DNA from: Archangium sp. | GTDB lineage: Bacteria > Myxococcota > Myxococcia > Myxococcales > Myxococcaceae | Assembly: GCA_016792935.1 (NCBI GenBank) | Contig: JAEUJS010000475.1 | Location: 1-44,600 of the forward strand | DNA length: 44,600 nt | Direction: 5' to 3' | In this document: positions 4,187 through 20,742 of the stretch, piece after piece | How the letters are laid out: every line of letters starts with the position of its first letter | Numbering within the stretch: position 1 is the stretch's first letter | Made by a program: the position numbers and the translations under genes | Notes under the pieces: model-generated | What the model was told of the DNA's origin: nothing | What the model saw: only the letters and a program-made list of their open reading frames with translations | Databases searched by the model: none

Positions 4187-4255
4187 GTCGCGACGTGTAG
4201 CACTGTGCCCGCCATCGCGACGCAGCAGGCAACTTCGACCAAACGAGCGCGCGTG

Positions 4256-4261
4256 TATCAT
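4256..4261 (+). promoter_or_regulatory. Candidate -10 box for a leaderless transcript
   Basis: TATCAT lies 11 bp before the ATG of the gene at 4273. It fits the TANNNT pattern seen before several other genes in this window. No convincing -35 was found. Inference only. Confidence 0.4.
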
Positions 4262-6537: not shown

Positions 6538-8052
6538 TCAGAATTCGACGCGAACCGCGGTCACCGCGCCTTCGTTCACGGTCACGGTGCGCTTCTTCGT
6601 CTCTCCGCCGGGGCCCTTGAAGAGCAGCGTGTGCTTGCCCGCGGGTAGCGGAAATTTCGCGAACGGCGTGCGATCGAGCAGCTTGCCGCCGAGCATCACC
6701 TCGGCCCACGGAGACGCGTCGGCGCTCAAGTAGCCGACCTTCACAGCTGGAAGCGGCTGTTTCACCGGCGTCGGTCGCTTCGCCACCACGACCGGCACGG
6801 GCCTCACGCTCGGCGGCTCGGGCTTTGGATCGTCCGGCGCAGGAATCGGCGGATCCGGATCCAGTTTCGGTTGCGTGACCTCGACTGGCCTGGGCCTCGG
6901 CGCGACCAGCGGTGGATCGACCACTGCGGGGATGGTGAGCGGCGCGTCACTCTTCGGCTGCTGTGACGTGTACACGCCCCACGACAGGCCGCTGATCAGC
7001 AGCAGCGCCGCGACCGTCACCAGGCCCCTGCTCCGCGCAGCCGACTTCGCGGGCCGTGGCGCCGCGAGCTGCTGCGCCGGAAGCTCGAGCTGTGTCGGCG
7101 TGACGGTGATGACCGAGCGCGTGCCCTCAGCGAGCTCTTCACCTTCGGCGCTGCCGAGCGCCTCGTTGCAATGCGCGAGCACGAACTCGGCGAGCTCGGG
7201 AGAGGTCGCCACCGGCCCATCGACGAGCGCTTCGCGAAACGCCTTCGCCGACGCAAAACGCTCCTCGGGTTTGCGAGAGAGCGCCTTGCGCAGCGCGGCC
7301 GCGAGACCGGGCGTGACGTCCTGGCGCAGCGACTCGATGGGCTCGACCTTCCCTTCCACCACCGCCTTCAACGACTCCGAGAAGTGGTCGCGCTTGAACG
7401 GGTGCACGCCGGTCAGTGCTTCGTAGAGCGTCAGCGCAGCCGAATAGACGTCGGCGCGCGCGTCGATGCGCGACGAACGCGTCACCTGCTCGGGCGCGAC
7501 GTAGGCCGCTTTTCCACGCACCACGCCGGGCTCCGTCATCGAGCCGTCGTGAATGCGCGCGATGCCGAAGTCGGTGAGCAGCACGGCGCCGTTGCGCGAG
7601 ACGAGGATGTTTCCGGGCGTCACGTCGCGGTGCACCACCTGGAGCGGCTTGCCCTGCCCATCTGCCAGACCGTGCGCGTAGCCGAGCGCTTCACACAGGC
7701 CGGTGCCGAGCAGGCGCACGATGGGAAGTGGCAGCTCGACGCCCTGCTTCGAGAGGTCGCGCAGCAAACGCCCGAGCGTCACGCCGTCGACCAGCTGCAT
7801 GGCGATGAAGGGCCGGCCGTCGGCCTCTCCGACGTCGAAGATCTCGACGATGTTCGGGTGGTGCATGCGCGCGGCGAGGCGAGCCTCTTCGTGAAAGCGA
7901 CGCACCAATTCGGCCGAGTCAGCGAGATGCGGGAGCAGGAACTTCAGCGCGACCCGCTTCTCGAAATTCCCGACGCCGGTGAGGCGCGCGACGAACACTT
8001 CTCCCATGCCGCCGCCGGCGATCTTCCTGATCAGCTCGTAGCCGCGGTCCAA
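6538..8052 (-). CDS. Membrane Ser/Thr protein kinase with PEGA-like tail
   Basis: 504 residues starting at a TTG (8052); no better start is available ahead of the glycine-rich loop, which begins at residue 11 (IAGGGMGEV). Catalytic Lys is K37, the catalytic loop is HRDVTPGN (141-148), with Thr where most kinases have Lys, the DFG is at 161-163 and APEQ at 186-189. After the kinase domain comes a linker, one transmembrane helix (about 343-361), a Pro-rich periplasmic stalk and a C-terminal beta-rich PEGA-like domain (about 435-504). It is the last gene of a minus-strand operon (9777 to 6538) behind a lipoprotein gene (25 bp gap) and a TPR-TM gene. A second kinase at 19277-20614 has the same plan and similar neighbours. 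Likely role: phosphorylating cytoplasmic targets in response to an envelope signal. Confidence 0.93.
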   Translation of the reverse strand: MDRGYELIRKIAGGGMGEVFVARLTGVGNFEKRVALKFLLPHLADSAELVRRFHEEARLAARMHHPNIVEIFDVGEADGRPFIAMQLVDGVTLGRLLRDLSKQGVELPLPIVRLLGTGLCEALGYAHGLADGQGKPLQVVHRDVTPGNILVSRNGAVLLTDFGIARIHDGSMTEPGVVRGKAAYVAPEQVTRSSRIDARADVYSAALTLYEALTGVHPFKRDHFSESLKAVVEGKVEPIESLRQDVTPGLAAALRKALSRKPEERFASAKAFREALVDGPVATSPELAEFVLAHCNEALGSAEGEELAEGTRSVITVTPTQLELPAQQLAAPRPAKSAARSRGLVTVAALLLISGLSWGVYTSQQPKSDAPLTIPAVVDPPLVAPRPRPVEVTQPKLDPDPPIPAPDDPKPEPPSVRPVPVVVAKRPTPVKQPLPAVKVGYLSADASPWAEVMLGGKLLDRTPFAKFPLPAGKHTLLFKGPGGETKKRTVTVNEGAVTAVRVEF

Positions 8053-8077
8053 AACGCGACGAGGTTACAGCACGCGA

Positions 8078-8851
8078 CTACGGAGGGCAGCCGCCCACGT
8101 CAGCCACCGAGAGCCACGCGTCGTCGACGTACACGCCATCGCCCGCATCGAAGCGGCTGTTCGCGGTGAGTCGCAGCTGAATGGTGCTCACGCCGATCGA
8201 CGCGTATTCCTCTTTCACCTGCACCCAGGCGTTGCGCACCGTGATGCGGGAGCCCGAGCTGGTGGCGGTGCCTCCGTCGAAGAAGCGGTCTCGCACCGTG
8301 AGCGTGAGGTCCACACCCGCGTCGCTGTCGCTGCGAAGCCACAGCGAGCCGCAGAACAACATGCCGAGCTCCGCACCGGGCACGTCGTTGTTGGGAATGA
8401 GAATCGGCTGCTGCTGGTACGCGGTCGACTGGAAGCGCCCCGAGCGATTTCCCGAGTGGCCTGCGTCGCTGGGCATCAGACGGCCGGTCGAAGCGCGCCA
8501 CTGCGACACGCTCGCGTCGGCGGTGAGCGACTCGAAGCCCGGATTCGCGAGGAGATTGACGCCGCGCGGAATTCCCGCGTCGAGTGGGCCGGCGTCTTGC
8601 GGTCCTGCGTCGACGCCTGCATCGCTGCCAGCGTCGATGCCCGCGTCGAACCCGGCGTCACGGCCTGCGTCGGGGCGGCCTGCATCAGCGCCCGCGTCGA
8701 AGAGCGTGTCTTCGTTCACGCACACCGCTTCGATGCACTCGAAGCCATCTCCACACGGGCGGGCGTCGTCGCAGCGCAGGCCCGTCACGTCGAGCGGCGC
8801 GAGCTCGCAGCCCGCCACCAACATCGACAGCAGGAGCGCGCGTCGGCTCAC
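8078..8851 (-). CDS. Lipoprotein with Asp-Ala-Gly linker and galactose-binding-like domain
   Basis: 257 residues from a GTG at 8851 whose sequence GTGA overlaps the stop of the upstream TPR gene, a typical coupled start. The signal peptide MSRRALLLSMLVAGC ends in lipobox V-A-G-C. A small Cys-rich knot (CDDARPCGDGFECIEAVC) follows, then about eleven copies of an Asp-Ala-Gly unit between residues 50 and 95. The C-terminal 150 residues (beginning NLLANPGFESL, ending DDAWLSVADVGGC) look like a carbohydrate-binding, galactose-binding-like jelly roll of the CBM4/CenC type. Probably a surface carbohydrate-binding or sensing lipoprotein working with the adjacent kinase and TPR protein. Confidence 0.8.
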   Translation of the reverse strand: MSRRALLLSMLVAGCELAPLDVTGLRCDDARPCGDGFECIEAVCVNEDTLFDAGADAGRPDAGRDAGFDAGIDAGSDAGVDAGPQDAGPLDAGIPRGVNLLANPGFESLTADASVSQWRASTGRLMPSDAGHSGNRSGRFQSTAYQQQPILIPNNDVPGAELGMLFCGSLWLRSDSDAGVDLTLTVRDRFFDGGTATSSGSRITVRNAWVQVKEEYASIGVSTIQLRLTANSRFDAGDGVYVDDAWLSVADVGGCPP

Positions 8852-9777
8852 CACGCGAGCACCAACCCGAGCGTCAGCGTCAGGCCCGCTCCGATGAACA
8901 GGCCCAGCGCCCACGTCTGCTGCGAGACGCCGTCGCGCTCGGCCTGCAGCGCGGTGAATGCGTAGTCACCCGGAGGACGAATGCGATCTCTGGCCGCCTG
9001 CCGCAGATTGAAGCCCGCCACCTGCAACCCGCTCGCGAGGCCCGCGGTGACGACGGCGGCTCCGGCGAGAATGAAGCCCGCGATGCGTCGCCCCGGGATC
9101 ACCGCCGGCGGTGCCTTCACCGGCTCGGTCACCGTCTTCGGCTGCGCGTCGATGAGCGGCACCTTCTCGATGCGCGGCTCCTCTTTCGTCGCCAGTGACC
9201 ATTTCACGAAGTCGTCCACGCCGCGCGCTTCGACGTACCACTCGAGCTGACCGCCCATCGCGACCACCAGCGGAAACACGTATTGGTGGCGCTTGCCGTC
9301 GAGCACCGAGCTTTCCCATTCACCGCTGTTCCGACGCTGCACCAGCACCACGCGAATCACTTCGTGCCACGGGTCGATGAGCCGCACCGTCACGCTGCCG
9401 CGCGCGCTCGGCCGCTCCTCGAGTCGCACGTAGCCTTCGGGGAAGTGACTCTTCTTCGCGGCGTCGAACACCTCGGTCACTTTGGGAGAAGCGACGTCGC
9501 GTGAGAGCTCCGCGGATGGGTCGAGTTCGAGCATCGCGATGAACGTCGCGCTCGCCGCGTCGCGCTGACCTTCGGCGATCTGACAGTACGCGAGCAGCTC
9601 GAGAATCGACTTCTGCTCGGCGTCGTCGAGGCCACGCACCTTGCGCGCGATCTCGAGCCGCTCGATCGCTTCGGCGAACTTGAGCTGCGCCATCAACGCG
9701 CGCGCTTCGTCTCGCCACGGGTTCGCGGGCTGCGCCATCAAGACGATCGCAGCCGCGAGGGCGAACATGATCCGCAT
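8848..9777 (-). CDS. TPR protein with signal peptide and C-terminal membrane helices
   Basis: 309 residues from the ATG at 9777, which gives the signal-peptide-like MRIMFALAAAIVLMAQ and has GGGGC upstream; the longer in-frame reading to 9897 has no signal. Residues about 20-90 are TPR-like (LKFAEAIERLEIARKVRGLDD; LLAYCQIAEGQRDAASATF). A beta-rich domain follows (about 115-215), then two hydrophobic helices at about 230-250 (IAGFILAGAAVVTAGLASGL) and 285-305. First gene of the operon with the lipoprotein and the Ser/Thr kinase. The predicted place is the periplasm, anchored in the inner membrane. A TPR-TM protein of the same style occurs in the second kinase operon. Confidence 0.8.
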   Translation of the reverse strand: MRIMFALAAAIVLMAQPANPWRDEARALMAQLKFAEAIERLEIARKVRGLDDAEQKSILELLAYCQIAEGQRDAASATFIAMLELDPSAELSRDVASPKVTEVFDAAKKSHFPEGYVRLEERPSARGSVTVRLIDPWHEVIRVVLVQRRNSGEWESSVLDGKRHQYVFPLVVAMGGQLEWYVEARGVDDFVKWSLATKEEPRIEKVPLIDAQPKTVTEPVKAPPAVIPGRRIAGFILAGAAVVTAGLASGLQVAGFNLRQAARDRIRPPGDYAFTALQAERDGVSQQTWALGLFIGAGLTLTLGLVLAW

Positions 9778-9949
9778 TTGCCCCGCCCCAAGTGTGCGAC
9801 GCAAGAGCGGAAATCCGCTGTCACCTCCCGGGGGACAGTGACGTGAGCGAGCGCAGTCCACATCGCCTGCGCCGCGTGGAAATCGGCTCCTAACCACCCA
9901 GAACCACGACCCAATTCAACTGGCCCCGACCTTGCGAAGGGAACGCGTC

Positions 9950-11203
9950 ATGCGTTGCTCTTCTGTCCTCGTCTTTCTGGTCGCCAGCGGGTGCATGGGC
10001 TCCATCAGATCAGCCGACGAGTCGGCTGGGGCACACGAGATGAAGCCGGCGCCCGTCGAAGTACCGGCCATCGTCGTGGTGAACGGCGCGCCGATCGACA
10101 CCACGCGGCCGATGCGGAGCAATCAGGGAAACTGGTCGGCGCCCTCCGCGCTGTGGCTGCAGAGCGGAGCGGCGACGGTGCTCGACGGCGACTCGGTGAA
10201 GCAGTCTCGGGCAACGACCAATGGAAACGGCTTCGAGGTCATCCTCGTCGGCACCACCGATGATGCACGCGCTCCGGGCAGCGTGCGCGCGATGACGGTG
10301 CGCGGTGACGGCGTTTTCCTCGCGGGCACCAACGGCTTCTTCCACGACGCGCCGGGCCGCTTGCTCCGCTCGCCGCTGTCGGACTCGTTCAACATGGCCA
10401 CCATTCGCTTCGTCGACTTCACCGACGGCGCGTTGTGGGTGACGACTTCCACCGAAGCGGTGCGCGTGCTCGACGGCCAGCGCGCGACCGTGAAGGTGAA
10501 CGACGCAGAAGAGAGCGGCGCGTTGCAGGCGGTGGTGGGCCGCTCTGCTTCGCGCGCGCTCGTGGTGAAGGGCGCCTCGCTCTACGCGGTCGACCTGGTC
10601 GCGCGTGAAGTGAAGACGCTCGCGCGTGGGCTGACGACGGTCACCGCGATTTCGCACCGCGATGGCGTGGTGTTGCTCGGCACCGACGACGGCCTCGTCG
10701 AAGTTGCTGCCGACGACGTCGTCTCGCGCCGCACGCTCGCCGCCGCCGGAGCGAATGCCGCCAACATCGTCGACCTCGAGGGCTCGCTGGTGACGACGTC
10801 GAGTGCCGTGCTGCACGTCACGAACGCGAGCGCGGTCATTCTCTCTGACGTCGCGTCGCCGTGGCCCGACTCGCTGGCGAAGGACGCGACCGGCGACGTG
10901 TGGTTCCTCGACGGAGCGAGCGTCACGCGCCTCACCACGTCCATCGCGCCGCCGCCCCCGTCGTTCGCGGCCGACGTGAGGCCGTTCTTCGCCGCGCACT
11001 GCAAGAGCTGCCACGCGACGGGCGCGAGCTACGCGCCGGTGCTCGACCTCGAGAACTACGGAGTCGCCAGGACCTGGGCGCAGGCCACCGTGCGCCGCCT
11101 CACCGACACCCTTTCGCCGATGCCTCCCGCCTCGGCCGAAATCCTCACACCCGCCCAGTACGACGTCGTCGTGCGCTGGGTCGACGGAGGGCTGCTGCCA
11201 TGA
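9950..11203 (+). CDS. Propeller lipoprotein with C-terminal c-type cytochrome domain
   Basis: 417 residues from the ATG at 9950, preceded by AAGGGAA; an in-frame TTG at 9932 is less likely. The signal peptide ends in lipobox A-S-G-C. Residues about 30-330 are repeated beta-strand blades (DGALWVTTSTEAVRVLDG; GVVLLGTDDGLVEVAADDVV), suggesting a beta-propeller. The C-terminal 80 residues carry one heme-attachment motif CKSCHATG and end WVDGGLLP, typical of the single-heme cytochrome domains found with DUF1549/DUF1501 proteins in planctomycetes and myxobacteria. First gene of a four-gene operon to 15095; its stop overlaps the next start as ATGA. Likely an outer-membrane or periplasmic electron-transfer or substrate-sensing protein. 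Confidence 0.8.
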   Translation: MRCSSVLVFLVASGCMGSIRSADESAGAHEMKPAPVEVPAIVVVNGAPIDTTRPMRSNQGNWSAPSALWLQSGAATVLDGDSVKQSRATTNGNGFEVILVGTTDDARAPGSVRAMTVRGDGVFLAGTNGFFHDAPGRLLRSPLSDSFNMATIRFVDFTDGALWVTTSTEAVRVLDGQRATVKVNDAEESGALQAVVGRSASRALVVKGASLYAVDLVAREVKTLARGLTTVTAISHRDGVVLLGTDDGLVEVAADDVVSRRTLAAAGANAANIVDLEGSLVTTSSAVLHVTNASAVILSDVASPWPDSLAKDATGDVWFLDGASVTRLTTSIAPPPPSFAADVRPFFAAHCKSCHATGASYAPVLDLENYGVARTWAQATVRRLTDTLSPMPPASAEILTPAQYDVVVRWVDGGLLP

Positions 11204-12813
11204 AACCCATGAAGGTCATCCTGACGTTGTGCACGCTTCTCTCTTCCGTCGCCGCTGCGCAGGTGAGCGCGTCGTGCGACCAGCCGCGCGAAATCGACAA
11301 GTACCAGCTGCTGCGCCGCCTGAGCCTCGACCTGCGCGGCAAGGCGCCGAGCTACGACGAGTACCTCGCGCTCGATGCGCAGAGCACCATTCCGCAATCG
11401 ACCATCACCGCGTGGCTGGCGAGCGACGACTTCCGCATCGCGATGCGCCGCTACCACGAGGAACTCTTCTGGCCGAACGTCAGCAACGTCGCGCTCAACA
11501 ACGTCAACGCGCAGCTGGTGCAGCTCACCGGCCCCGACGCGTGGGCGATTTCGTCGGCCGGCAAGCGCCGCATCTTCCGCGGGCTGACCGACATCAACAC
11601 CGTCAACGGCGTGCAGTGCGGTGACTTCGAGCAGACACAGTTCACCGCGGGCTTCGTGCCGGTGGCGAGCGCGGTGCGCACCGTCGTCGTGAACGGCACC
11701 ACGGTGAAGCAAGAAGGCTGGCGCATGGTGACGCCGTACTGGTCCACCACGCCCATCAAGGTGTGCGCGTACGACGCGATGGAGACCACCAGCGTCACCG
11801 TCAGCGGCCGCGTCATTGCGTGCAACAGCGTCGACGCCGACGCGCGCGCGGAATGCGGCTGCGGCCCCGGCCTCGCGTACTGCTACGGCCCGACGGCCAG
11901 CGTGCGCACCGTGATTCAGCAGGCGATGCGCGAGCAGCTCAACCTGATGGTGGACCGCGTCAGCACCGGCGGTCAGCCGTACACCGAGCTCATCACCGCG
12001 CGGACCGCTCCGACCAACGGGCCGCTGACGTTCTGGAAGAAGAACCTCGCGCCGCACTTGTCCTACTCGCGCATCGTCGCGCTGCCCGACCCCAACGAGC
12101 CGCTCACCAACGCGACCTGGAGCGATGCCACGTGGCGTCAGGTCGATCGCGGCTCCGCGCTGCATGCGGGAGTGTTGAGCACGCCGGCGTACCTGCTCCG
12201 CTTCCAGACCAACCGCGGCCGCGCGAACCGGTTCCGCATCGACTTCGAGTGCGAGAGCTTCGTGCCGCCCTCTCAGCTGGAAACGCCGGCCCAGGGCTGC
12301 AGCGATTCTTCGGGCGACCTCACGCAGCGCTGCACCTGCCGCTACTGCCACCGTCAGCTCGAACCGCTCGCCGCGGGCTTCGGCAACTTCGCCGAAGCGG
12401 GCACCACGCTGATGACCGACCTCACGATGTTCCCCCGCACGCGCGCTTCGTGCGTGAACAACGGTGGAACGTTCTGCAACCGCTTCTACGTGACGGACGA
12501 TTCGGCGGACAACCCGGGCGCGTTGTTGCCGTACCAGTACGCCGACGCCGCGCACCCCGACATCACCAGCGCGCTCGCCGCGGGCCCTCGTGGCCGCGCG
12601 GACGCCATCATCGCCGACGGCACGTTCGCTCGCTGCGCGGTGAAGCGCACCTGGTCGTACTTCATGAAGCGCGACCTGCGCGTCATCGGCACCGACCCCG
12701 ATGAGAACGCGACGCTCGCCACGCTCACCAGTGGCTTCACCGCCAACGGCCACAGCCTCCCGTGGCTGGTCGAACAAATCGTCTCGCAGCCGACGTACCG
12801 GAGGGTCCGATGA
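11200..12813 (+). CDS. Exported DUF1549/DUF1588-like protein with CxxCH motif
   Basis: 537 residues; starts at the ATG of an ATGA overlap with the upstream gene. It has a Sec signal peptide (MKPMKVILTLCTLLSSVAAA). The region at about residues 25-90 (LLRRLSLDLRGKAPSYDEYL) resembles DUF1549 (PSCyt2), where LDLRG/LDLTG and P-T/S-xxE motifs are typical. The region around residues 310-410 resembles DUF1588, including HAGVLSTPAYLLRF and CRYCHRQLEPLAAGFGNF; the CRYCH motif could bind heme. These families are known in planctomycetes and myxobacteria but have no settled biochemical role. Co-transcribed with a cytochrome lipoprotein before it and a lipoprotein and DUF1501 protein after it. Confidence 0.75.
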   Translation: MKPMKVILTLCTLLSSVAAAQVSASCDQPREIDKYQLLRRLSLDLRGKAPSYDEYLALDAQSTIPQSTITAWLASDDFRIAMRRYHEELFWPNVSNVALNNVNAQLVQLTGPDAWAISSAGKRRIFRGLTDINTVNGVQCGDFEQTQFTAGFVPVASAVRTVVVNGTTVKQEGWRMVTPYWSTTPIKVCAYDAMETTSVTVSGRVIACNSVDADARAECGCGPGLAYCYGPTASVRTVIQQAMREQLNLMVDRVSTGGQPYTELITARTAPTNGPLTFWKKNLAPHLSYSRIVALPDPNEPLTNATWSDATWRQVDRGSALHAGVLSTPAYLLRFQTNRGRANRFRIDFECESFVPPSQLETPAQGCSDSSGDLTQRCTCRYCHRQLEPLAAGFGNFAEAGTTLMTDLTMFPRTRASCVNNGGTFCNRFYVTDDSADNPGALLPYQYADAAHPDITSALAAGPRGRADAIIADGTFARCAVKRTWSYFMKRDLRVIGTDPDENATLATLTSGFTANGHSLPWLVEQIVSQPTYRRVR

Positions 12814-13670
12814 AGACCGTGACCAATGTCTCCCTCTCCTCCGCGATGCGGGGTGAGGGGCAGTTTCGAGCACTCACGCTCGGAGCCGTGCTCATCGCGT
12901 TCGCAGCCTGTGACGAAGCACCGACCGTCACCCAGCCAACCGGCCCGCAGCTCGGAGTGGAAGACACCGCGCCCGTGATGCCGCTCGATCATCCTCCCGT
13001 CGACGGAATGGGCGGAGGCACCGGCGGTGGTCTCACCGGCGGCGGCACTGGCGGCGGAACCGGCGGCGGCACCGGCGGTGGCACGACGGGCGGCGGAACC
13101 GGCGGCGGCGCGACTGGCGGAGGCGGAGGCGTCGCGACGCCGATGAGCGCCGGCGTGCAGCGCCTGACGGTGCGTCAGCTCGCGCAGAGCCTGCCCATCG
13201 TCCTCGGCGGCAACACGTGGATGATTGGCACCACCAACGGCTTCAACGCCCGCAGCGCGACGCTCGGTGAGCCCGACTACATCAACGTCGTCGACGAGAA
13301 CCTCGAGGCGAGCTCGCTGTACCAGAAGTTCATGGGCGACATGGCGCGCGACGGCTGCACCCGCACCGCGAACGCCGACGCCGCGCTCGCGGCGAACTCG
13401 CGCGTGTTGATGCGCTTCGTCGCGCTCACCGACACCACCACCACCAATCGCACCGGCATCGACGCCAACCTGCGCTACCTGAAGCTGCGCTTTCACGGCG
13501 TGAAGATTCCCGACACCGACACTGCTTCTCTTGACGGCCTGCGCACGGTCTTCGACGCGGCGGTTCGCGGAGCCGCCGGCACCAACACTCCCACCGCGGC
13601 TCACGTGAAGGAGGGCTGGCGCGCCGTCTGCGTCTCGCTCCTCACCGCGCCCGAGTACCACCTGTACTGA
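12810..13670 (+). CDS. Lipoprotein with Thr-Gly-Gly-Gly linker, partner of the DUF1501 operon
   Basis: 286 residues; the ATG overlaps the upstream stop (ATGA) with GAGGG 4 bp ahead. The signal peptide ends in lipobox F-A-A-C near residue 35 and has an unusually long N-region (residues 5-20) that is encoded by a degenerate copy of a dispersed palindrome (12830-12860). Residues about 70-112 are a Gly/Thr linker made of TGGG units. The rest (RLTVRQLAQSLPIVLGG through LTAPEYHLY) is helical and resembles the segment that in larger DUF1592-type proteins precedes the core, so this may be a split-off part of that family. Function unknown. Confidence 0.7.
   Translation: MKTVTNVSLSSAMRGEGQFRALTLGAVLIAFAACDEAPTVTQPTGPQLGVEDTAPVMPLDHPPVDGMGGGTGGGLTGGGTGGGTGGGTGGGTTGGGTGGGATGGGGGVATPMSAGVQRLTVRQLAQSLPIVLGGNTWMIGTTNGFNARSATLGEPDYINVVDENLEASSLYQKFMGDMARDGCTRTANADAALAANSRVLMRFVALTDTTTTNRTGIDANLRYLKLRFHGVKIPDTDTASLDGLRTVFDAAVRGAAGTNTPTAAHVKEGWRAVCVSLLTAPEYHLY
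12830..12860 (+). repeat. Degenerate dispersed palindrome inside a signal peptide
   Basis: CTCCCTCTCC (12830-12839) and GGGGTGAGGG (12850-12859) match the ends of the palindromes at 39649 and 43622. Here it lies in frame within the first 20 codons of the lipoprotein gene. Identity of origin is inferred from the arms only. Confidence 0.4.
13012..13132 (+). repeat. GC-rich coding microsatellite (TGGG units)
   Basis: Irregular 12-15 bp units of the GGCACCGGCGGC type, encoding (T)GGG repeats that form the flexible linker of the lipoprotein at 12810-13670. Such runs are prone to in-frame length change. Confidence 0.85.
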
Positions 13671-13688
13671 TTCCTCGAGGACACCAAC

Positions 13689-15095
13689 ATGTTCACCACA
13701 CGACGCGGATTCCTCGAGGTGCTGGGCCTGGCGACGGGCGGGCTGGTGTTGCGCTCGACGCCACTGGGCAATGCCTACGCGCAGACCGCCGACCCGAAGT
13801 ACCTGCTGCTCGTCTATTTCTCCGGCGGCTGGGACCAGCTGCTCTCGCTCGATCCGCGCAACGCGACGCTCGCGCAGTACCAGCGGGTCGCGGGCCGCGC
13901 GCCGACCTCGGGCATCGAGCCGGCGTACGTGCAGACCGCGGCGGAAACTCCGTTCGTCGACACGGTGATGACGGCCACCGGAGGCAGCGGCGTGCAGGCG
14001 CGCGGCAACCTCACGTTCGGTCCCGCAGTGCCCGACACCATGCTCGCGCACTCGCCTGACCTCTGCGTCATCCGCGGCATGAACATGGACACGCTGACCC
14101 ACGAGGTCGGCCGTCGCTACCTCCTGACCGGGAAATTTCCCCGCGGGCTGGCGGCGTCGGGCAGCTCCATCAACACCGTCGTCAGCGCGCAGACCGGAGC
14201 GAACGGCGACATCCCCAACATCTCCATCGGCAACGAGTCGTACAACGAGGGGTTGTTGCCAGCGGCGTCGGCGGTGCGCGTCGCGTCGTACCGCGACATG
14301 TTGACCGTGATGCAACCGCAGGCCGGCACGGTGTTGCCGACCGCTTCCGAGAACGCAGTGCGTGCGTTCGAAGACAGCGACGACACGTGTGAGCAGCACG
14401 GCTACGACGTGAGCGGCCTCGTCACCGCGTTCAAGGACTCGCGCACCATGTCGCGCCAGCTCGCGCAGCCGGCGAAGGCGACGCTGTTCGACTTCAAGTT
14501 CCCGACTCCGGCGCCGCTCACCGACTTGTTCGGCGCGTTCAATCTCAACGCGTCGGCTGACTTGAACACCGTGCGTGGCCGCGCGGCGGTCGCGGGCCAG
14601 GCCATCGTCAACGGCGTGTCGAACGTCGTCTCGGTGGAGCTCGCGAACGGTCTCGACGACCACTTCGACCTCTTCAGCCAGCAGGCCGTCTCGCAGCGCG
14701 ACGGCTGGGACGCGCTCGGTCGCCTCATCACGTACTTGAAGGGCAAGTCGGTGCCCGGCAGCGCGAAGAACTTCTGGGAATGCACGACGATGATGGTGTT
14801 CAGCGAGTTCAGCCGCACGCCGCTCATCAACACGCGCGAGGGCCGTGACCACCACCTCACCTCGAGCTGTCTGCTCGCCGGACCTGGCATCAAGGGCAAC
14901 ACGGTGTTCGGCGCGTCGTCGAACACGGGCATGCAGGTGCAGAAGTGGAACTTCGCCAACGGCGCGCTCGATGCGGCAGCGGGCAACCTGATTCGTCCCG
15001 CTGACGTGCACGCCACGGTGCTCGACTCGATGGGCTTGTCGTTCTCACACCTCTCGAATCAGTCGCCGCGCGTCATCGGGGCCATCAAGCGCTGA
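13689..15095 (+). CDS. Tat-exported DUF1501 family protein
   Basis: 468 residues, with GAGGA 8-12 bp before the ATG. The N-terminus MFTTRRGFLEVLGLATGG carries a twin-arginine motif (R5-R6), so it is exported folded. The body is of the DUF1501 type, an alkaline-phosphatase/sulfatase-like fold. Diagnostic segments are LLLVYFSGGWD (about 36-46), VIRGMNMDTLTHEVGRR, and VFSEFSRTPLINTREGRDHH near residue 370, which carries the His residues conserved in the family. Last gene of the operon starting at 9950. DUF1501 proteins in other genomes are usually paired with DUF1800 or DUF1549 partners; here the pairing is with the cytochrome and DUF1549/1588-like proteins. Substrate unknown. Confidence 0.88.
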   Translation: MFTTRRGFLEVLGLATGGLVLRSTPLGNAYAQTADPKYLLLVYFSGGWDQLLSLDPRNATLAQYQRVAGRAPTSGIEPAYVQTAAETPFVDTVMTATGGSGVQARGNLTFGPAVPDTMLAHSPDLCVIRGMNMDTLTHEVGRRYLLTGKFPRGLAASGSSINTVVSAQTGANGDIPNISIGNESYNEGLLPAASAVRVASYRDMLTVMQPQAGTVLPTASENAVRAFEDSDDTCEQHGYDVSGLVTAFKDSRTMSRQLAQPAKATLFDFKFPTPAPLTDLFGAFNLNASADLNTVRGRAAVAGQAIVNGVSNVVSVELANGLDDHFDLFSQQAVSQRDGWDALGRLITYLKGKSVPGSAKNFWECTTMMVFSEFSRTPLINTREGRDHHLTSSCLLAGPGIKGNTVFGASSNTGMQVQKWNFANGALDAAAGNLIRPADVHATVLDSMGLSFSHLSNQSPRVIGAIKR

Positions 15096-15098
15096 GGC

Positions 15099-15656
15099 TC
15101 ATGGCGGCTCGGGGTACGCGTTCAGCAGCGCTTTGACCTTCGCCTCGAGCGCGTTGCATTCGGCGCAGCCGCTGATCAGCTCCGGCCGTTGCGCTCTGAG
15201 TGCGACCGAGAACGCGCCCGCGCGATGAAAGCGCGGCACTGCGAGCCACTTCTCACGCGTGGCCCGGTACTGCACGACGCGCTTCTCCTGCGCGGCACTC
15301 TTCGCGCGGAAGCACAGACCGTCCATGTACTTGTCGGTGAACTCCATGCCGTCGCACTCGAGCGCGGCGACGGTCTTCCACGCGGTGCGCTCGGCCGAGG
15401 CCGTCTTCTTCACCAGGGCCTGCTGCGCTTTCTCGTCGAGGAACTCGGAGAGCGTGAGCGTGACGATGAACGTGTGCGTCTCGAGGCTCGCAGCCGACGG
15501 TGCATTCGCCGGCAGCACCCGCACTTCGCGCGAGAGGCGAATCGTCACGCCGTCTCTCGTGACGCTCACCTCGGGCCCGACGGCTTTCAAGTCCGAGAGC
15601 AACGCGACCACGTTCGGTTCGGGAATCGCAGTGAGCACCAACAGCAGCGCGAGCAT
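15099..15656 (-). CDS. Small secreted protein of unknown function
   Basis: 185 residues. The start MLALLLVLTAIPEPN is a short signal peptide. The mature part has a beta-strand region (VSVTRDGVTIRLSREVRVLP), a Lys/Glu-rich helical centre, and two Cys pairs, including SGCAECNAL near the C-terminus. I do not recognise a family. The ATG is only 20 bp from the divergent Nudix gene, so their promoters must overlap. It ends 3 bp from the DUF1501 stop. Confidence 0.7.
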   Translation of the reverse strand: MLALLLVLTAIPEPNVVALLSDLKAVGPEVSVTRDGVTIRLSREVRVLPANAPSAASLETHTFIVTLTLSEFLDEKAQQALVKKTASAERTAWKTVAALECDGMEFTDKYMDGLCFRAKSAAQEKRVVQYRATREKWLAVPRFHRAGAFSVALRAQRPELISGCAECNALEAKVKALLNAYPEPP

Positions 15657-15661
15657 CGCCG

Positions 15662-15667
15662 TAGACT
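15662..15667 (+). promoter_or_regulatory. Candidate -10 box for the Nudix gene
   Basis: TAGACT lies 9 bp before the ATG at 15677, within the 20-bp gap to the divergent gene. No Shine-Dalgarno sequence is present, so a leaderless mRNA is likely. Inference. Confidence 0.45.
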
Positions 15668-15676
15668 GACACCACC

Positions 15677-16042
15677 ATGGCGGACGCGGCCATCGTCGTC
15701 ATCGAGAACGAGCGCGGCGACGTGCTCGGCGTGTCGCGGCCTGGTCTGCCCGACGACGTGGGCCTTCCAGGCGGGAGCATCGACGACGGCGAGACACCCG
15801 AAGCCGCTGCGATTCGCGAAGTGAGAGAAGAGACGTCGCTCGAGGTCAGCGTGCGCCTGCTCTTCTCCGAGCCGTACCACGGGCATCTCGTGCATGTGTT
15901 CGTCGCTACGTCGTGGACGGGCACGCCGCGCTCCACGCCCGAAGGTGAAGTGAAGTGGACGACGTGGGCCGAGGTTTCGCGCGGGCGCTACGGCGACTTC
16001 AATTCGCGCATCTGCGAGCAGATTCCGCGCGTCTCGCGCTGA
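15677..16042 (+). CDS. Nudix hydrolase
   Basis: 121 residues, normal for a single-domain Nudix protein. The Nudix box spans about residues 33-55: G-x5-E-x7-REVREETS, with Ser in place of the usual Gly after EE-x. These residues bind Mg2+ and hydrolyse nucleoside diphosphates linked to another moiety. The N-terminal strand AAIVVIENERGDVLGVSRP and LPGGS lead into the box as expected. Substrate cannot be assigned. The FHA gene follows 25 bp downstream on the same strand. Confidence 0.92.
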   Translation: MADAAIVVIENERGDVLGVSRPGLPDDVGLPGGSIDDGETPEAAAIREVREETSLEVSVRLLFSEPYHGHLVHVFVATSWTGTPRSTPEGEVKWTTWAEVSRGRYGDFNSRICEQIPRVSR

Positions 16043-16051
16043 TCAGCGACG

Positions 16052-16057
16052 TACACT
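16052..16057 (+). promoter_or_regulatory. Candidate -10 box for the FHA gene
   Basis: TACACT lies 10 bp before the ATG at 16068; no ribosome binding site is seen in between. Part of the TANNNT series in this window. Confidence 0.4.
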
Positions 16058-16067
16058 CGGCGGCACG

Positions 16068-16607
16068 ATGGCCGCCTCCGCGTACATGTTGTCGCTCCTG
16101 GTGCGTCAGTACCTCTTCCTCGTCGACGCGTTCCGCACGCGCTACCCGTCGAGCTGGATCATCTGGGAACCCGGAGCCTGGCGCCCCGCGCGCACCGCCG
16201 CCGAGGGAGACCACGCCGCCACGCAGCAGGCGACCAAGGCGCCCGCCCGTCCCGTCGGCACCGACGCGTTGTGCTTCGAGCTCAAGAACGACAGCAAACA
16301 CGAGCTCACCGTCGGCCGCATCTCCGAGAGCGACATCTTCATCAACGACATGACGCTCTCGCGCGAACAGCTGCGGCTGAGCGTCAGCAACGGTGCGTGG
16401 TCGGTGAAGCTCGCCGACGAAGCCGGCGCCGTAACCCACTTCGACGGAGTGCCCGCGCAGCTCGGCAAGCCGGTCCCACTCAAGTCGGGCTCGTCCATCA
16501 CCTCGGGCGACGTGCGCTTCACGTTCTACGACACGGCCGGGTTCATCGCGCGGCTCAAGGCCGAGTCGGCCGCCACGCCGGCTCCAGCCACCACGCTTCC
16601 GAAGTAG
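16068..16607 (+). CDS. FHA-domain protein
   Basis: 179 residues. The N-terminus (about 1-70) is a short helical segment and a Pro/Ala linker. Residues about 70-160 form an FHA domain: VGRISESDIFINDMTLSREQL contains the GR and S-R (SREQ for the usual SRxH) phosphopeptide-binding positions, and the domain ends with a GDVRFTFYD strand. His of SRxH is replaced by Gln. FHA domains bind phosphothreonine, so this is a candidate adaptor for the Ser/Thr kinases nearby, one of which ends its operon just 3 bp away on the opposite strand. Partner not shown by sequence. Confidence 0.85.
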   Translation: MAASAYMLSLLVRQYLFLVDAFRTRYPSSWIIWEPGAWRPARTAAEGDHAATQQATKAPARPVGTDALCFELKNDSKHELTVGRISESDIFINDMTLSREQLRLSVSNGAWSVKLADEAGAVTHFDGVPAQLGKPVPLKSGSSITSGDVRFTFYDTAGFIARLKAESAATPAPATTLPK

Positions 16608-16609
16608 GT

Positions 16610-18613
16610 CTACTGGCAGGTCCCGGCCGTGCAGTTCAAGCTGCCGCAGCCGACGCAGGTCACGCCACCGGAGCCGCACGCGTTCTTCGCGGTGCCTGCA
16701 GCGCAGTTGCCCTGCCCCGTGCAGCAGCCAGCGCACGTCGTCGAATCACAGACACAGCTGCCGTTCACGCAGTGCTTGCCGTTGGTGCACGCGTTGCCCG
16801 TGCCGCAGCTGCAGCGCCCCGCGCGACAGGAATCGGCGAACAGCGGGTCGCACGCGGTGCACGCTGCGCCGCTCGCGCCGCACTCGGCCGTGGTGGGTGA
16901 AGCGACGCAGACGCCGTTCGCGCAGCAGCCGCTCGCGCAATTGACCGCCGAGCACCCACCCGAACACGAGCCACCGTCACAAGCTGCTCCACCAGTGCAC
17001 GTCATGCATGCCGCTCCGCCCGTTCCGCAGGCGCTCAGGCTCGTGCCCATCTGACACATGCCGCCCTGGCAGCAGCCACTCGGGCACGTCGTGGCATCGC
17101 ACACAGACGCAACGCACAAACCGCCATCGCAGCCGCCGGGAGCGCAGTTGATGCAGACCGCTCCGCCCGCACCGCACGCCCCGCTCAGGGTTCCCGGCTC
17201 GCACACGCCGTTCACACAGCAGCCGTTGGGGCACGTCGCAGGGGTGCACGTCATCTCGCACTGCCCTGCGTCGCAGGTTCCACCGCCACAGCTCACGCAG
17301 GTGCGCGCGCCGCTGCCGCACGCGCTCGCGGTGTCGCCGGCAACGCAATCACCCAGCGCGTCGCAGCAGCCGGAACACGTCGCCGCAGAACAGCCTCCGA
17401 CGCACTGGCGCGAGGTCGCGTCGCACGTACCGGAGCCGCACGAAACGCACGCCGCGCCACCGCCACCGCATGCTGCGTTCTGCCGGCCGTTGCGGCACAC
17501 CCCGTCCTGGCAACAACCGTTCGGGCAAGTCGCAGGCCCACACGCTTGCTGACACGTGCCCGCATCGCAGCCTCCCGGGCAGTCGACGCAGGTGCCGCCG
17601 CCCATGCCGCACGAGACGGCATCGGTGCCGCTCAGACACACGCCGTTCGAACAACACCCGCTGCACGTCGCGGGGCCGCAGCTGTCCACGCACGCTCCGC
17701 CGTCACAGCCACCCGCGCCGCAGCTCACGCACGCCATCGCGCCGACACCGCACGCAGCCATGTCACGACCCGACAGGCAGCTCGAGCCCGAGCAACACCC
17801 CGAGGGGCAGTTGGCGGCGTTGCACAGCGCCGTGGTGCACGTACCGCCGTTGCATGCCGTCGCTCCGCAGTCGAGACAGGCGCGACCACCAGTGCCGCAC
17901 GCGCTGCCCGACGAGCCGGTCAGACATTCCCCGTTGAAGCAGCAGCCCGCGCACGAAGACGGCGTGCACTGACAAATCTGCTGCAGGCATTCCTGGCCGG
18001 GGCCACACGCAGGGCCGCTTCCGCACTGGCACTGGCCGTTGATGCAGCGATCTCCACCGAGCGCCAGACTGCACGGAGGCCCGTCGCCGCACGCGCACCG
18101 TCCATCTGCTCCGCACGAATCAGCGCTGAGCGGATCACACGTGGTGCACACGCCACCAGCCGCGCCGCACGCCGCCGAGGTGGGCGACAGACAATCACCC
18201 AGGTCCGAGCAGCACCCCGCACAGGACGAATCGCACCCGCTCATCGGCACGTTGAGATCGATGGCCACGCCCACTTCGCGCCCGAGCTTGATGTCGGCGA
18301 TGGCCGCTCCATCGACGGCGACCACACCCTGGGCGAGCCCCTCGACGTAGAAGGTGAGCGTCTGACCAGCGAGCGCATCAGGCAGCAAGATGCGCACCGT
18401 CACGTCGGCGGGAATCGTGCCGCCCGGCGCTTCGGGACGCACGGACGGAGCGACGACGCGCGCGCCAGTGGCATCGGTCGCGGAATAGCGGAGCTGGTCC
18501 AGGTCGACCATCGCGTGCGTGGTGATGAGCACCGCCGTGCCCTTGAGCGACGCAGCGTCTTTGCAGGTGAACGCGAGCGCCAGACTCGCGACGAGGAGCA
18601 GCCGACGGTTCAT
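16610..18613 (-). CDS. Secreted protein with ten Cys-rich GCC repeats
   Basis: 667 residues. The N-terminal signal peptide is MNRRLLLVASLALAF; the Cys after it (A-F-T-C) is a poor lipobox, so it may be a plain secreted protein or an atypical lipoprotein. Residues about 20-120 form a beta-rich head (VRILLPDALAGQTLTFYVEG). The remaining 540 residues contain ten repeats of about 40-50 residues with the pattern C-x(2-3)-C-x-GCC-x(2-5)-C-x(8-12)-CG-x-GG-x-C-x2-C, interrupted twice by a different Cys module (CACGDGPPC; CSCGTGNAC). All Cys are probably paired in disulfides, giving a long rigid stalk on the cell surface. It overlaps the TPR-TM gene by ATGA and ends the kinase operon. Confidence 0.85.
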   Translation of the reverse strand: MNRRLLLVASLALAFTCKDAASLKGTAVLITTHAMVDLDQLRYSATDATGARVVAPSVRPEAPGGTIPADVTVRILLPDALAGQTLTFYVEGLAQGVVAVDGAAIADIKLGREVGVAIDLNVPMSGCDSSCAGCCSDLGDCLSPTSAACGAAGGVCTTCDPLSADSCGADGRCACGDGPPCSLALGGDRCINGQCQCGSGPACGPGQECLQQICQCTPSSCAGCCFNGECLTGSSGSACGTGGRACLDCGATACNGGTCTTALCNAANCPSGCCSGSSCLSGRDMAACGVGAMACVSCGAGGCDGGACVDSCGPATCSGCCSNGVCLSGTDAVSCGMGGGTCVDCPGGCDAGTCQQACGPATCPNGCCQDGVCRNGRQNAACGGGGAACVSCGSGTCDATSRQCVGGCSAATCSGCCDALGDCVAGDTASACGSGARTCVSCGGGTCDAGQCEMTCTPATCPNGCCVNGVCEPGTLSGACGAGGAVCINCAPGGCDGGLCVASVCDATTCPSGCCQGGMCQMGTSLSACGTGGAACMTCTGGAACDGGSCSGGCSAVNCASGCCANGVCVASPTTAECGASGAACTACDPLFADSCRAGRCSCGTGNACTNGKHCVNGSCVCDSTTCAGCCTGQGNCAAGTAKNACGSGGVTCVGCGSLNCTAGTCQ

Positions 18614-19299
18614 CGAGCGTTGATGTCAGGGAAGGTCGTCGGCGCAGGCTGGGGAGCCGTGGCGACCGCGACTGAAGTGGTGACTGCTCCAGCGACGACG
18701 ACGCCGATGGCGCCCCAGAACCACCAGCGCTGGTACACGGGCGGCGGAGCCTTCGCGGCTTCCTGCGCCTGCAATGCGCGCTCGAGCTCGAGGCGACGTG
18801 ACGCAGCTTCGGCCTCGGCCTGCTTCACGGCGAGCTTCGCGTGCTCGACCTGCAGAGCGCGCGCCGATGCTTCCTTCGCGAGCCGTTCCTGCTCGGCGCG
18901 GGCCTCACGTTCCTTCGCTTCCTTCGCGGCCTGTTCCGCGCTCGCTTCCTTCTCCGCGCGCTCCGCTTCGGTCTGGGTGATGAGCGTCTCGACCGCGTCA
19001 GCCTGCGGCTTCGCCGGGTTCGTCTCGAGGTAGCGCTTGAAATACGAGAGCGCCTCGTCGAGGTGGCCCGCCTTGCGGTGACTCTGCGCGAGGTTGAAGA
19101 GCAGACCCGGCGCGGGCTTGAGCCGGTAGGCCTCTTCGTATTTCGAAATCGCCTTCACGAAGTCGTTGGTGTCGAACGCCTTCTTGCCTTCGAGCGCAGC
19201 GGCGCGGGCGCGCACCTCGACCTCGTCTGCGTGTGCGACGCCGGCCACGAGCAGGAGCGCGACACCGAGTGCCAGCTCAGTACGGGTCGAGAACGCCAT
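18610..19299 (-). CDS. TPR protein with signal peptide, coiled coil and C-terminal membrane helix
   Basis: 229 residues. The signal peptide (MAFSTRTELALGVALLLVAGVAHA) is followed by TPR units (about 35-105: GKKAFDTNDFVKAISKYEEA; LFNLAQSHRKAGHLDEALSY), a long Ala/Glu/Lys coiled coil (about 108-185) and one transmembrane helix (WWFWGAIGVVVAGAVTTS, about 191-210). The start overlaps the upstream kinase gene by 23 bp, and its stop overlaps the Cys-repeat gene start (ATGA), so the three are translationally coupled. Likely a periplasmic, membrane-tethered link between the kinase and the surface protein (inference). Confidence 0.85.
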   Translation of the reverse strand: MAFSTRTELALGVALLLVAGVAHADEVEVRARAAALEGKKAFDTNDFVKAISKYEEAYRLKPAPGLLFNLAQSHRKAGHLDEALSYFKRYLETNPAKPQADAVETLITQTEAERAEKEASAEQAAKEAKEREARAEQERLAKEASARALQVEHAKLAVKQAEAEAASRRLELERALQAQEAAKAPPPVYQRWWFWGAIGVVVAGAVTTSVAVATAPQPAPTTFPDINAR

Positions 19300-20614
19300 C
19301 GGTCACCACGCGCCTGGGCTTCGGTTTCACCGCCGCCGGGATGGCCTTGAGCGTGAACTCGAGGCGTTGGTTCGAATCGAGGACCACCGCGCGCTCGAGC
19401 GGCTCGAAGCCGTTGAGCTCGACGCGCAGCGGCGTCGGCATGGTGCGGCGCGCCGACTTGAAATCGAGCGGCGTGACGCCCAGCACTTCACCGGTATCTC
19501 CGCGGGTGACGCGCGCGCCTTCGGGCTGGGTGGTGATCTTGAGCGTGACTTCATCGAGCAGCACGACGGGAGGCGGAGGCGGAGGCACCACCTCGAGCTG
19601 GGTCGGGCTTTCCTTCGGCCGCAGCGCGAGGCCGCCGGCGACCAGCGCGACGAGCACCGCAGCTGCCAGCGCGATCGGCTTCCACGGACGAGCGCTGCTC
19701 GGCTGAATGACGGCTCCACCGGTCAGCGCACCATCGACCGCGCCCATCGACGCGGGCCGATCAGCGGGCTTCTTCGCCAGACACGCCGTCACCAGCGCCG
19801 CGAGCGAAGGCGGAATCGGTTCCTGGCTGGTGCTCAGCTTCGGCAACGGCGGAGGCGGCTGCGTGATGATGTCGGCGGCGAGCTGCCCGAAGGTAGACGC
19901 CTCGAAGGGCACCTTCCCGGTGAGCATCTCGTAGAGGATGGTGCCCAGCGCGTAGACGTCGGTGCGCGCGTCGACGTCGAGGCCGGCGACCTGCTCGGGC
20001 GCCATGTAGCGCGGCGTTCCGAGCAGCACGCCCTGCTGGCTCTGCACCAGATTGACCTCGCCCTGATCGGGCGCGCTCTTGGCGACGCCGAAGTCGAGCA
20101 CCTTCACCCAGTCGTCGCGGCCCTCACGCTCGACGAGGAAGATGTTGTCGGGCTTGAGATCGCGGTGCACCACGCCCGCGGCGTGCGCGGCGCCGAGCGC
20201 GCTGGCGATCTGCCGGGCGATGGTGATGATGCCTTCGATCGAAGTCGCGCGCGTCGCGAGCCGGTGCGAGAGCGTCTCACCGCGCAGGAACTCCATCACG
20301 CAGTACACGCGCTCCGGCATCAGCTCTTCGACGAAGTCGTGCACCTCGACGATGTGGCGGTGGTTGATCTGATTGACGAGGCGCCCCTCGAGCATCAAGC
20401 GGTCGACGAGCTGGCGATCCCGCAGCAGGCGATCGTGCAACACCTTGAGGGCGACGTTGCGGCCGAGGCGTTGGTGGCGCCCAAGGTACACACGTCCCAT
20501 GGAGCCCTCGCCGAGGACTCGTTCGATCACGTACGGCCCGAGCGCTTCTCCAACTTCCAGCGGTGGAGCGTCGGGGATCGATTGTGGCTGTGATTCCACA
20601 AGCGAGAGAGACAT
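19277..20614 (-). CDS. Membrane Ser/Thr protein kinase with PEGA domain
   Basis: 445 residues from the ATG at 20614, which has a strong AGGGGGCC ahead; an in-frame ATG at 20695 would add 27 residues of low complexity. Glycine loop at 34-41 (LGEGSMGR), catalytic Lys 57, HRDLKPDN at 150-157, DFG at 174-176, APEQ at about 205-208. A transmembrane helix at about 313-331 is followed by a Pro-rich stalk and a PEGA domain (355-425) with a literal PEGA at 364-367 and the typical GVTPLDF. All kinase catalytic residues are intact. First gene of the operon with the TPR-TM and Cys-repeat genes. Likely senses envelope state through the PEGA domain. Confidence 0.95.
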   Translation of the reverse strand: MSLSLVESQPQSIPDAPPLEVGEALGPYVIERVLGEGSMGRVYLGRHQRLGRNVALKVLHDRLLRDRQLVDRLMLEGRLVNQINHRHIVEVHDFVEELMPERVYCVMEFLRGETLSHRLATRATSIEGIITIARQIASALGAAHAAGVVHRDLKPDNIFLVEREGRDDWVKVLDFGVAKSAPDQGEVNLVQSQQGVLLGTPRYMAPEQVAGLDVDARTDVYALGTILYEMLTGKVPFEASTFGQLAADIITQPPPPLPKLSTSQEPIPPSLAALVTACLAKKPADRPASMGAVDGALTGGAVIQPSSARPWKPIALAAAVLVALVAGGLALRPKESPTQLEVVPPPPPPVVLLDEVTLKITTQPEGARVTRGDTGEVLGVTPLDFKSARRTMPTPLRVELNGFEPLERAVVLDSNQRLEFTLKAIPAAVKPKPRRVVTDGVLDPY

Positions 20615-20742
20615 GGCCCCCTGAGATTGTCCGACTGCAGACAGCGCCACACCAGTACCACGCCCGAGGGAAGACGACGTGGGGAACGCGCTCATTGGAA
20701 AAGTGCGATGCGCCGGTTGGTTGACGCTGATTTAGTCACGGA

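Follow-up and report, generated by a model that had tools for sequence, protein, structure and literature searches.

A candidate three-part envelope receptor built around a PEGA-domain Ser/Thr kinase in Archangium sp. and other Myxococcota

Operon B and its products

The window examined here is a stretch of 44,600 nt from the draft genome of Archangium sp. (assembly GCA_016792935.1, contig JAEUJS010000475.1, positions 1 to 44,600), which comprises 8.83 Mb in 740 contigs and is 81 % complete. It contains two minus-strand operons, A (9777 to 6538) and B (20614 to 16610), each encoding a Ser/Thr kinase, a TPR or TPR-like protein and a predicted lipoprotein, and each of the six is confirmed as an open frame where an earlier note on this DNA placed it. 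Our main subject is operon B, or module B, whose three products probably act together as one envelope receptor. The TPR proteins of modules A and B are designated TPRa and TPRb and their kinases KinA- and KinB-type; loci in this and other genomes carry L numbers and genomes G numbers. Transmembrane (TM) helices and signal peptides are the calls of a simple hydropathy script, and gene starts and neighbours are the output of a purpose-made gene caller, so that helices, signal peptides and starts are predictions only.

The module B kinase gene (19277..20695, minus strand, with an ATG start at 20695 or 20614) encodes a Hanks-type Ser/Thr kinase by its Pfam match (Pkinase, E-value 1.7e-50, 172.3 bits against a cut-off of 31.7), with the kinase domain at residues 55-317, one predicted TM helix, a PEGA domain after the helix (residues 383-450; 27.5 bits, cut-off 20.8) and a C-terminal LDPY tail. 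By eye, its kinase motifs are intact. The Asp-Pro-Tyr motif of the tail (19280..19288, minus strand), a predicted periplasmic docking peptide, is encoded within the 23 bp by which the kinase gene overlaps the beginning of the TPR gene. The TPR protein (18610..19299, minus strand) has a signal peptide, two TPRs (TPR_2, 32.8 bits, Pfam cut-off 27), a long helix, one TM helix with WWFW and a short C-terminal tail; its structural model has a predicted local distance difference test (pLDDT) score of 86.5, and its top Foldseek matches are TPR designs. After a further overlap of 4 bp comes the gene for the predicted lipoprotein (16610..18613, minus strand), in which an N-terminal beta-sandwich domain (NTD; 18251..18547, minus strand), the conserved part of this third gene, is followed by Cys-rich repeats, with 112 cysteines after residue 20. 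The lipobox of this protein, AFTC, is unusual, and a lipoprotein is predicted because Cys17 aligns with the lipobox cysteine of its relatives and is invariant in 18/18 rows.

Recurrence of the gene set

At 16 of the 20 top-ranking TPRb places apart from the window's own, a kinase gene is next door to the TPRb gene; the others are L092, L104 and L105, which have no adjoining kinase, and L100, whose contig has a kinase end only. A predicted lipoprotein lies within two genes of the TPRb gene or the kinase in 13/20 of these loci, and an exported protein rich in Cys or in Asp-Ala-Gly (DAG) in 9/20. For a test set, 20 new loci were named and a rule for the kinase tail was written before any was read, 17 of them (15 genomes) coming from other families or classes. 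The TPRb gene was called in 19 (not in L305), and in 17/19 it is immediately preceded, on the same strand, by the kinase gene, the exceptions being L295 and L311, as compared with 8/218 random genes that have a kinase next door. An exported Cys-rich protein adjoins the kinase-TPRb pair in 13/19 (control, within three genes, 48/218), and a lipoprotein or Cys-rich protein does so in 17/19.

The control comprised 20 seeded random 20-kb regions of six related genomes, with 343 genes and eight kinases. Its 218 interior non-kinase genes have a kinase within three genes in 25 cases, a predicted lipoprotein within three genes in 82 and an exported Cys- or DAG-rich protein within three genes in the 48 given above. 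Two of the regions overlap TPRb loci and some of the contigs were previously known to contain TPR hits, which biases the comparison against finding enrichment. The earlier proposal that kinase, exported TPR-TM protein and lipoprotein form a functional set is thus well supported for operon B, where the arrangement is conserved across the phylum.

The third gene is defined by its N-terminal beta-sandwich and not by Cys repeats. Cys-richness was at first used as its hallmark and was replaced by a profile of the first ~150 residues of the lipoprotein family. The profile detects the domain in lipoproteins whose C-terminal part varies widely and may consist of CC-rich repeats, contain DUF4215 or have few cysteines. 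The NTD matched no family among PDB sequences and Pfam (best E-values 0.23 and 0.24), which is not proof of a new fold. For its fold, kinship with secretin pilotins was considered, which would call for a secretin partner. In the loci fetched first, every NTD hit was within two genes of TPRb; after 20 more loci were added, mostly picked for an NTD away from listed TPRb hits, this was so for 38/52. A survey of 195 genomes of the phylum found TPRb in 108 at an E-value of 1e-20 or better and in 76 at 1e-35 or better, and the NTD in 80. At the strict cut (TPRb 1e-35, NTD 1e-10) both are present in 74 genomes, TPRb only in two, NTD only in six and neither in 113; at the loose cut the figures are 78, 30, two and 85. 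The two strict TPRb-only genomes are G017 and G128, the NTD gene of G128 being truncated where its contig ends (L312). In genera where NTD and TPRb are distant, the two genes still co-occur in the genome. We note also some unlinked NTD lipoproteins of 255-318 amino acids (L315, L318, L319 and L320) whose neighbour is a kinase with no predicted TM helix.

A C-terminal motif of kinases with a TPRb neighbour

When the kinase ends were first read, [DN]P[FY] was found near the C-terminus in 26/27 kinases followed by TPRb and in 2/53 others. The test set bears this out, with the motif within the last 14 residues in 14/17 kinases and within the last 16 in 15/17, and in the pooled loci the tail is present in 50/52 kinases with TPRb adjacent and in 4/58 without. 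The four tailed kinases among the 58 (L103, L284, L299 and L305) are all within TPRb loci, where the TPRb gene is partial, uncalled, missed by the export filter or three genes off. To account for the distribution of the tail on the kinase tree, eight changes are needed, at least five of which are forced by the starred branches. The earlier note had guessed at contact between the PEGA domain and the TPRs; the sequences speak rather for the short tail that follows this domain as the part that would dock in the TPR protein.

Joint presence and absence

Sixteen named genomes share the locus of the kinase and a convergent FHA gene (at L143 the FHA gene is a tblastn hit without a gene call). Eight of them have TPRb, NTD and tail together, and the other eight lack all three. 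The eight with all three are two Archangium, Hyalangium, two Corallococcus, two Pyxidicoccus and Myxococcus sp. RHSTA-1-4, with TPRb E-values of 2.3e-78 or better. The eight without are M. xanthus, M. vastator, M. sp. CA023, the genome of L138, M. llanfair..., M. eversor, M. qinghaiensis and Citreicoccus, in which there is no TPRb hit better than 3.7e-22, no NTD at 1e-5 and no tail. Since these eight are not one clade in the kinase tree, two or more losses are likely. In the five of them whose loci were read, a Cys-rich lipoprotein and a protein of 399-411 amino acids with a signal peptide and two TM helices are encoded beside the kinase; in M. xanthus the Cys-rich lipoprotein matches the MopE motif and the 399-411-residue protein matches no Pfam family. 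The record of L138 is titled Comamonas sp. KCTC 72670, but by kinase tree and gene order it falls inside Myxococcus and is possibly mislabelled.

The convergent FHA protein

The FHA gene at 16068..16607 (plus strand), which converges on operon B, was earlier named as a possible readout, and by gene order it does belong with module B. Its FHA domain is above the Pfam cut-off (28.7 against 20.7 bits) and is matched in 8/8 members of the alignment of its family (A1). An independent search of the species genomes with this gene gave 67 loci with 64 genes called, of which 37 have a kinase within three genes (30/46 where there are at least three genes on both sides). On reading the best 41 loci (L109-L149), we find the FHA gene convergent on a KinB-type kinase within three genes in 30; the distant loci L150-L173 mostly have no convergent KinB-type kinase. 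A threonine, Thr52, in the otherwise variable linker before the FHA domain is present in 37/37 module members and in 2/19 others, with 5/12 among contig-edge members that were set aside. In OdhI, phosphorylation of Thr14 changes the shape of the protein and ends its binding of OdhA (PMC9769921), and by analogy the 16068 protein may be an OdhI/GarA-type phospho-switch acting at Thr52. A group of distant FHA relatives (L164, L172, L173, L148 and L161) is encoded directly after a kinase of 613-718 amino acids and has no Thr at the Thr52 position.

Operon A is a different module

The two operons had been read as two copies of one cassette, a reading we reject: BLASTP between the two TPR proteins gives an E-value of 34, the module B NTD profile gives no match to the lipoprotein of module A, and the two kinases, whose alignment is confined to the kinase domain (33 %), occupy separate regions of a tree built from 80 membrane kinases. 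Operons A and B are two different modules of similar build.

Module A comprises a TPR-like protein (8848..9777) with a signal peptide, weak TPR similarity and two predicted TM helices, a lipoprotein (8078..8854, GTG start at 8854 or 8851, lipobox LVAGC) with Asp-Ala-Gly repeats and a CBM_4_9-like domain, and, after a gap of 25 bp, a Ser/Thr kinase (6538..8052, TTG start) with one predicted TM helix and a PEGA-like tail, all on the minus strand. The kinase is of the Hanks type (Pkinase, E-value 5.7e-32, 111.6 bits, Pfam cut-off 31.7), and its PEGA domain is borderline, scoring 19.7 bits as a protein against a cut-off of 20.8 and 24.4 bits in a genome search. TPR_16 in the TPR-like protein is below the Pfam cut-off (19.1 against 32.7 bits), and TPR_19 is weakly matched by 10/16 members of its alignment. 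For the carbohydrate-binding-like domain proposed earlier there is some support from relatives, CBM_4_9 being found in three of the five members of the lipoprotein alignment (best E-value 3.2e-5), and the window protein is not among the three; a profile of this lipoprotein gave nothing convincing against PDB (best E-value 0.014).

The pairing of kinase and TPR-like protein recurs. The gene was called at 18 of the 20 top-ranking TPRa places found in 31 genomes apart from the window's own (not at L071 and L087), and a kinase is within three genes in 12/18 and next door in 5/18. The six without are L069, L074, L078 and L085, which are near contig ends, L082, where the kinase is four genes away, and L086. 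Where flanks are complete, 8/9 loci have a kinase within three genes (p 2e-7); next-door kinases alone are not enriched in these nine (1/9, p 0.29). Enrichment of the lipoprotein was not found, since any predicted lipoprotein within two genes of TPRa or its kinase (8/18) and any exported Cys- or DAG-rich protein in the same range (7/18) are close to the random levels of 82/218 and 48/218 within three genes. The lipoprotein's own family occurs in a few TPRa loci, some members having CBM_4_9. The earlier note held that its pairing would be coincidence if neighbour enrichment were lacking, and for the module A lipoprotein this is largely what we find; for operon A the proposed functional set is partly supported, in the pairing of kinase and TPR-like protein.

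The gene at 2894..4261 (minus strand), also suggested earlier as a readout, belongs with module A by gene order. Its product combines an FHA domain with a sigma54-activator domain and matches HTH_8 weakly in Pfam, and we refer to its family as EBP. In L072, L075, L079, L080, L082 and L083 there is a 4-bp overlap between the activator homologue and the kinase gene. The homologue is within three genes of 14/26 KinA-type PEGA kinases, taken from loci that had been selected through TPRa, EBP or other hits, as against 12/222 random genes. The activator was given up as a starting point for searches, a kinase being within three genes of only 7/20 further homologues; two activator loci (L178 and L187) have a PEGA fragment alone at the contig end. 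Seven more TPR-like hits in the source genome have a kinase next door (L279, L282, L283 and L285), two genes off (L281), three genes off (L284) or not at all (L280). Distant TPRa relatives without an adjacent kinase (L270, where the kinase is two genes off, L271 of M. xanthus, L272 and L286) share a similar neighbourhood, in which the TPRa-like protein is accompanied by a lipoprotein of 162-167 amino acids.

Divergent from operon A, a cluster of genes for exported proteins at 10040-15095, with DUF1549-like and DUF1501 matches, is conserved beside operon A in L069, L070 and L074. We left aside a sigma54-like box (9921-9935) that lies upstream of operon A's divergent neighbour gene. A box of equal score occupies the corresponding place in L069 and L070, and this score is reached by only three of 89,200 window positions. 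Against it, none is found in L074, one-mismatch boxes are fewer in the window than in shuffled sequences (1 against a mean of 3.7), and by eye the transcription start would fall past the ribosome site. Elsewhere in the window, a gene at 20743-21891, divergent from the module B kinase, encodes WGR and ATP-dependent DNA ligase domains, and a second Cys-rich protein (31297-33351; 47 Cys) with a MopE-type motif is encoded near an SNF2 helicase (28369-31293) and a BlaR1-type M56 peptidase (25560-27944).

A model for module B and its alternatives

We favour, with a probability of roughly 0.6, the reading that the kinase, TPR membrane protein and lipoprotein of module B are a three-gene set forming one envelope receptor, in which the kinase tail is predicted to lie in the groove of the TPR protein. 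The kinase domain would be cytoplasmic and the PEGA domain and tail periplasmic, and the TPR head would stand in the periplasm on a long helical stalk ending in the inner membrane. The beta-sandwich of the lipoprotein may bind, or present itself to, the kinase-TPR complex, with the exchangeable Cys-rich part carrying the input. This input would alter the contact between TPRs and tail and so change the dimerisation or activity of the kinase, and this would result in phosphorylation of the convergent FHA protein at Thr52, whose phosphorylated linker would then fold back on its own FHA domain. Module A, with its TPR-like protein, KinA-type PEGA kinase and FHA-sigma54 activator, would be a separate receptor with a transcriptional output. 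We would put at somewhat short of even odds the broader proposal that module B represents a new class of Ser/Thr kinase receptor in separate parts (a [DN]P[FY] plug in the periplasm, a TPR reader on a stalk, and a lipoprotein sensor with a constant beta-sandwich and swappable Cys-rich repeats), that these three are gained and lost as a unit across Myxococcota, and that the kinase and FHA switch are re-usable alone, as in Myxococcus xanthus.

A number of observations weigh against the receptor reading. M. xanthus retains the kinase and FHA protein without TPRb or NTD, and at least four loci with TPRb and NTD have no recognised adjacent kinase (L092, L295, L311 and L321). The exact motif is lacking in the kinases of L114, L307 (LSPF) and L313 (IDAF, the protein ending IDAFGQ), the last a true TPRb neighbour that is counted among the 58 because its TPR gene failed the export filter. 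Cys repeats are dispensable (L101, L108 and L310), and in many genera the NTD gene is remote from TPRb; of 106 NTD rows, at least 44 are within 3 kb of a listed TPRb. Residues F68, N69 and Q72 of TPRb are found in 49, 50 and 49 of 50 motif-linked proteins but are common in other TPRb proteins too (11, 12 and 11 of 13) and so do not single out tail binding, and the positive charge that precedes the TPRb TM helix would suit the opposite orientation. Locus counts share ancestry between relatives and hence are not independent, and TPRb was the usual search query. Finally, the kinases of the source genome number at least 154 and its TPRa/TPRb hits only 22, so most of its kinases are without such partners.

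That same abundance of kinases, together with the lipoproteins near 82/218 random genes, would favour a chance neighbourhood, which may account for the module A lipoprotein (8/18); for module B, chance is refuted by the adjacency of 17/19 against 8/218 and by joint presence and absence even for unlinked genes, and we regard it as the least credible of the explanations considered. Scarcely more plausible is that the tail is a by-product of gene overlap, the DNA of the TPR start also spelling IDPF in the kinase frame. The overlap in the window and most near relatives is 23-35 bp, with S[ST]RS and IDPF coming from the same DNA; four of the 17 test loci (L300, L302, L308 and L312) have a possible TPR-frame start that covers the motif DNA, and in L314 the called TPR start does so. 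By called starts, which may be miscalled, 16/17 test pairs are non-overlapping, and ten of the 17 have no TPR-frame start codon anywhere within the kinase gene. Because nine of these ten nevertheless carry the tail, it is not merely a product of the overlapping frame, and overlap as its sole source is rejected; moreover, L107 has the tail with its TPR gene upstream of the kinase, and L285 has NPY with no overlapping start.

A third explanation holds that the TPR protein and lipoprotein serve envelope assembly (secretion, a stalk or a surface coat), the kinase being regulated with this assembly and not by it and the tail being a localisation tag that brings the kinase to it. We consider this unlikely, though a good deal less so than the other two. 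Should the receptor reading hold, it would bear on how bacterial Ser/Thr kinases receive signals, which is largely an open question; to our knowledge few relatives of these kinases have known inputs or targets. The module B kinase type now has a defined partner, a candidate sensor, a short mutable peptide and a candidate substrate residue, and the Myxococcus genomes that keep the kinase and lack the other parts provide a natural control.

Relation to known systems

No paper on this module was found among titles and abstract openings of the openly licensed literature, a body that leaves subscription journals mostly outside, so that absence from print is not shown. A paper on ambruticin deals with histidine kinases and was set aside, and review passages contained nothing on the module. 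The closest known systems work alike but belong to other families. The best NCBIfam match of both kinase regions is to the PASTA kinases (PknB/Stk1; NF033483), at 231.2 and 246.1 bits well below the 450-bit cut-off, with PEGA in place of PASTA. FHA-containing sigma54 activators of Myxococcus were reportedly the subject of a 2005 study by Jelsbak. The gene at 2894 resembles such activators in its FHA and sigma54-activator domains but differs in that its gene order links it to a single type of kinase and a single TPR-like protein.

The GlnH-GlnX-PknG-OdhI system of Corynebacterium (PMC9769921) likewise has a lipoprotein sensor, a membrane relay and a Ser/Thr kinase in one putative operon, and its FHA target is phosphorylated on an N-terminal threonine, for which Thr52 of the module B FHA protein is a candidate counterpart. 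It differs in its soluble kinase, four-TM relay and amino-acid-binding lipoprotein (PMC9769921). Module B is not of this GlnX type, kinase and TPRb each having one predicted TM helix, and its lipoprotein is of another family. PknS of Xanthomonas citri is described in PMC13147305 as a Hanks-type kinase with a cytoplasmic kinase domain, one TM helix and periplasmic TPRs, and forms without the periplasmic side do not complement. In PknS the TPRs are within the kinase itself and the output is an ECF sigma factor (PMC13147305), whereas in module B they form a separate protein, probably linked to the kinase through its tail.

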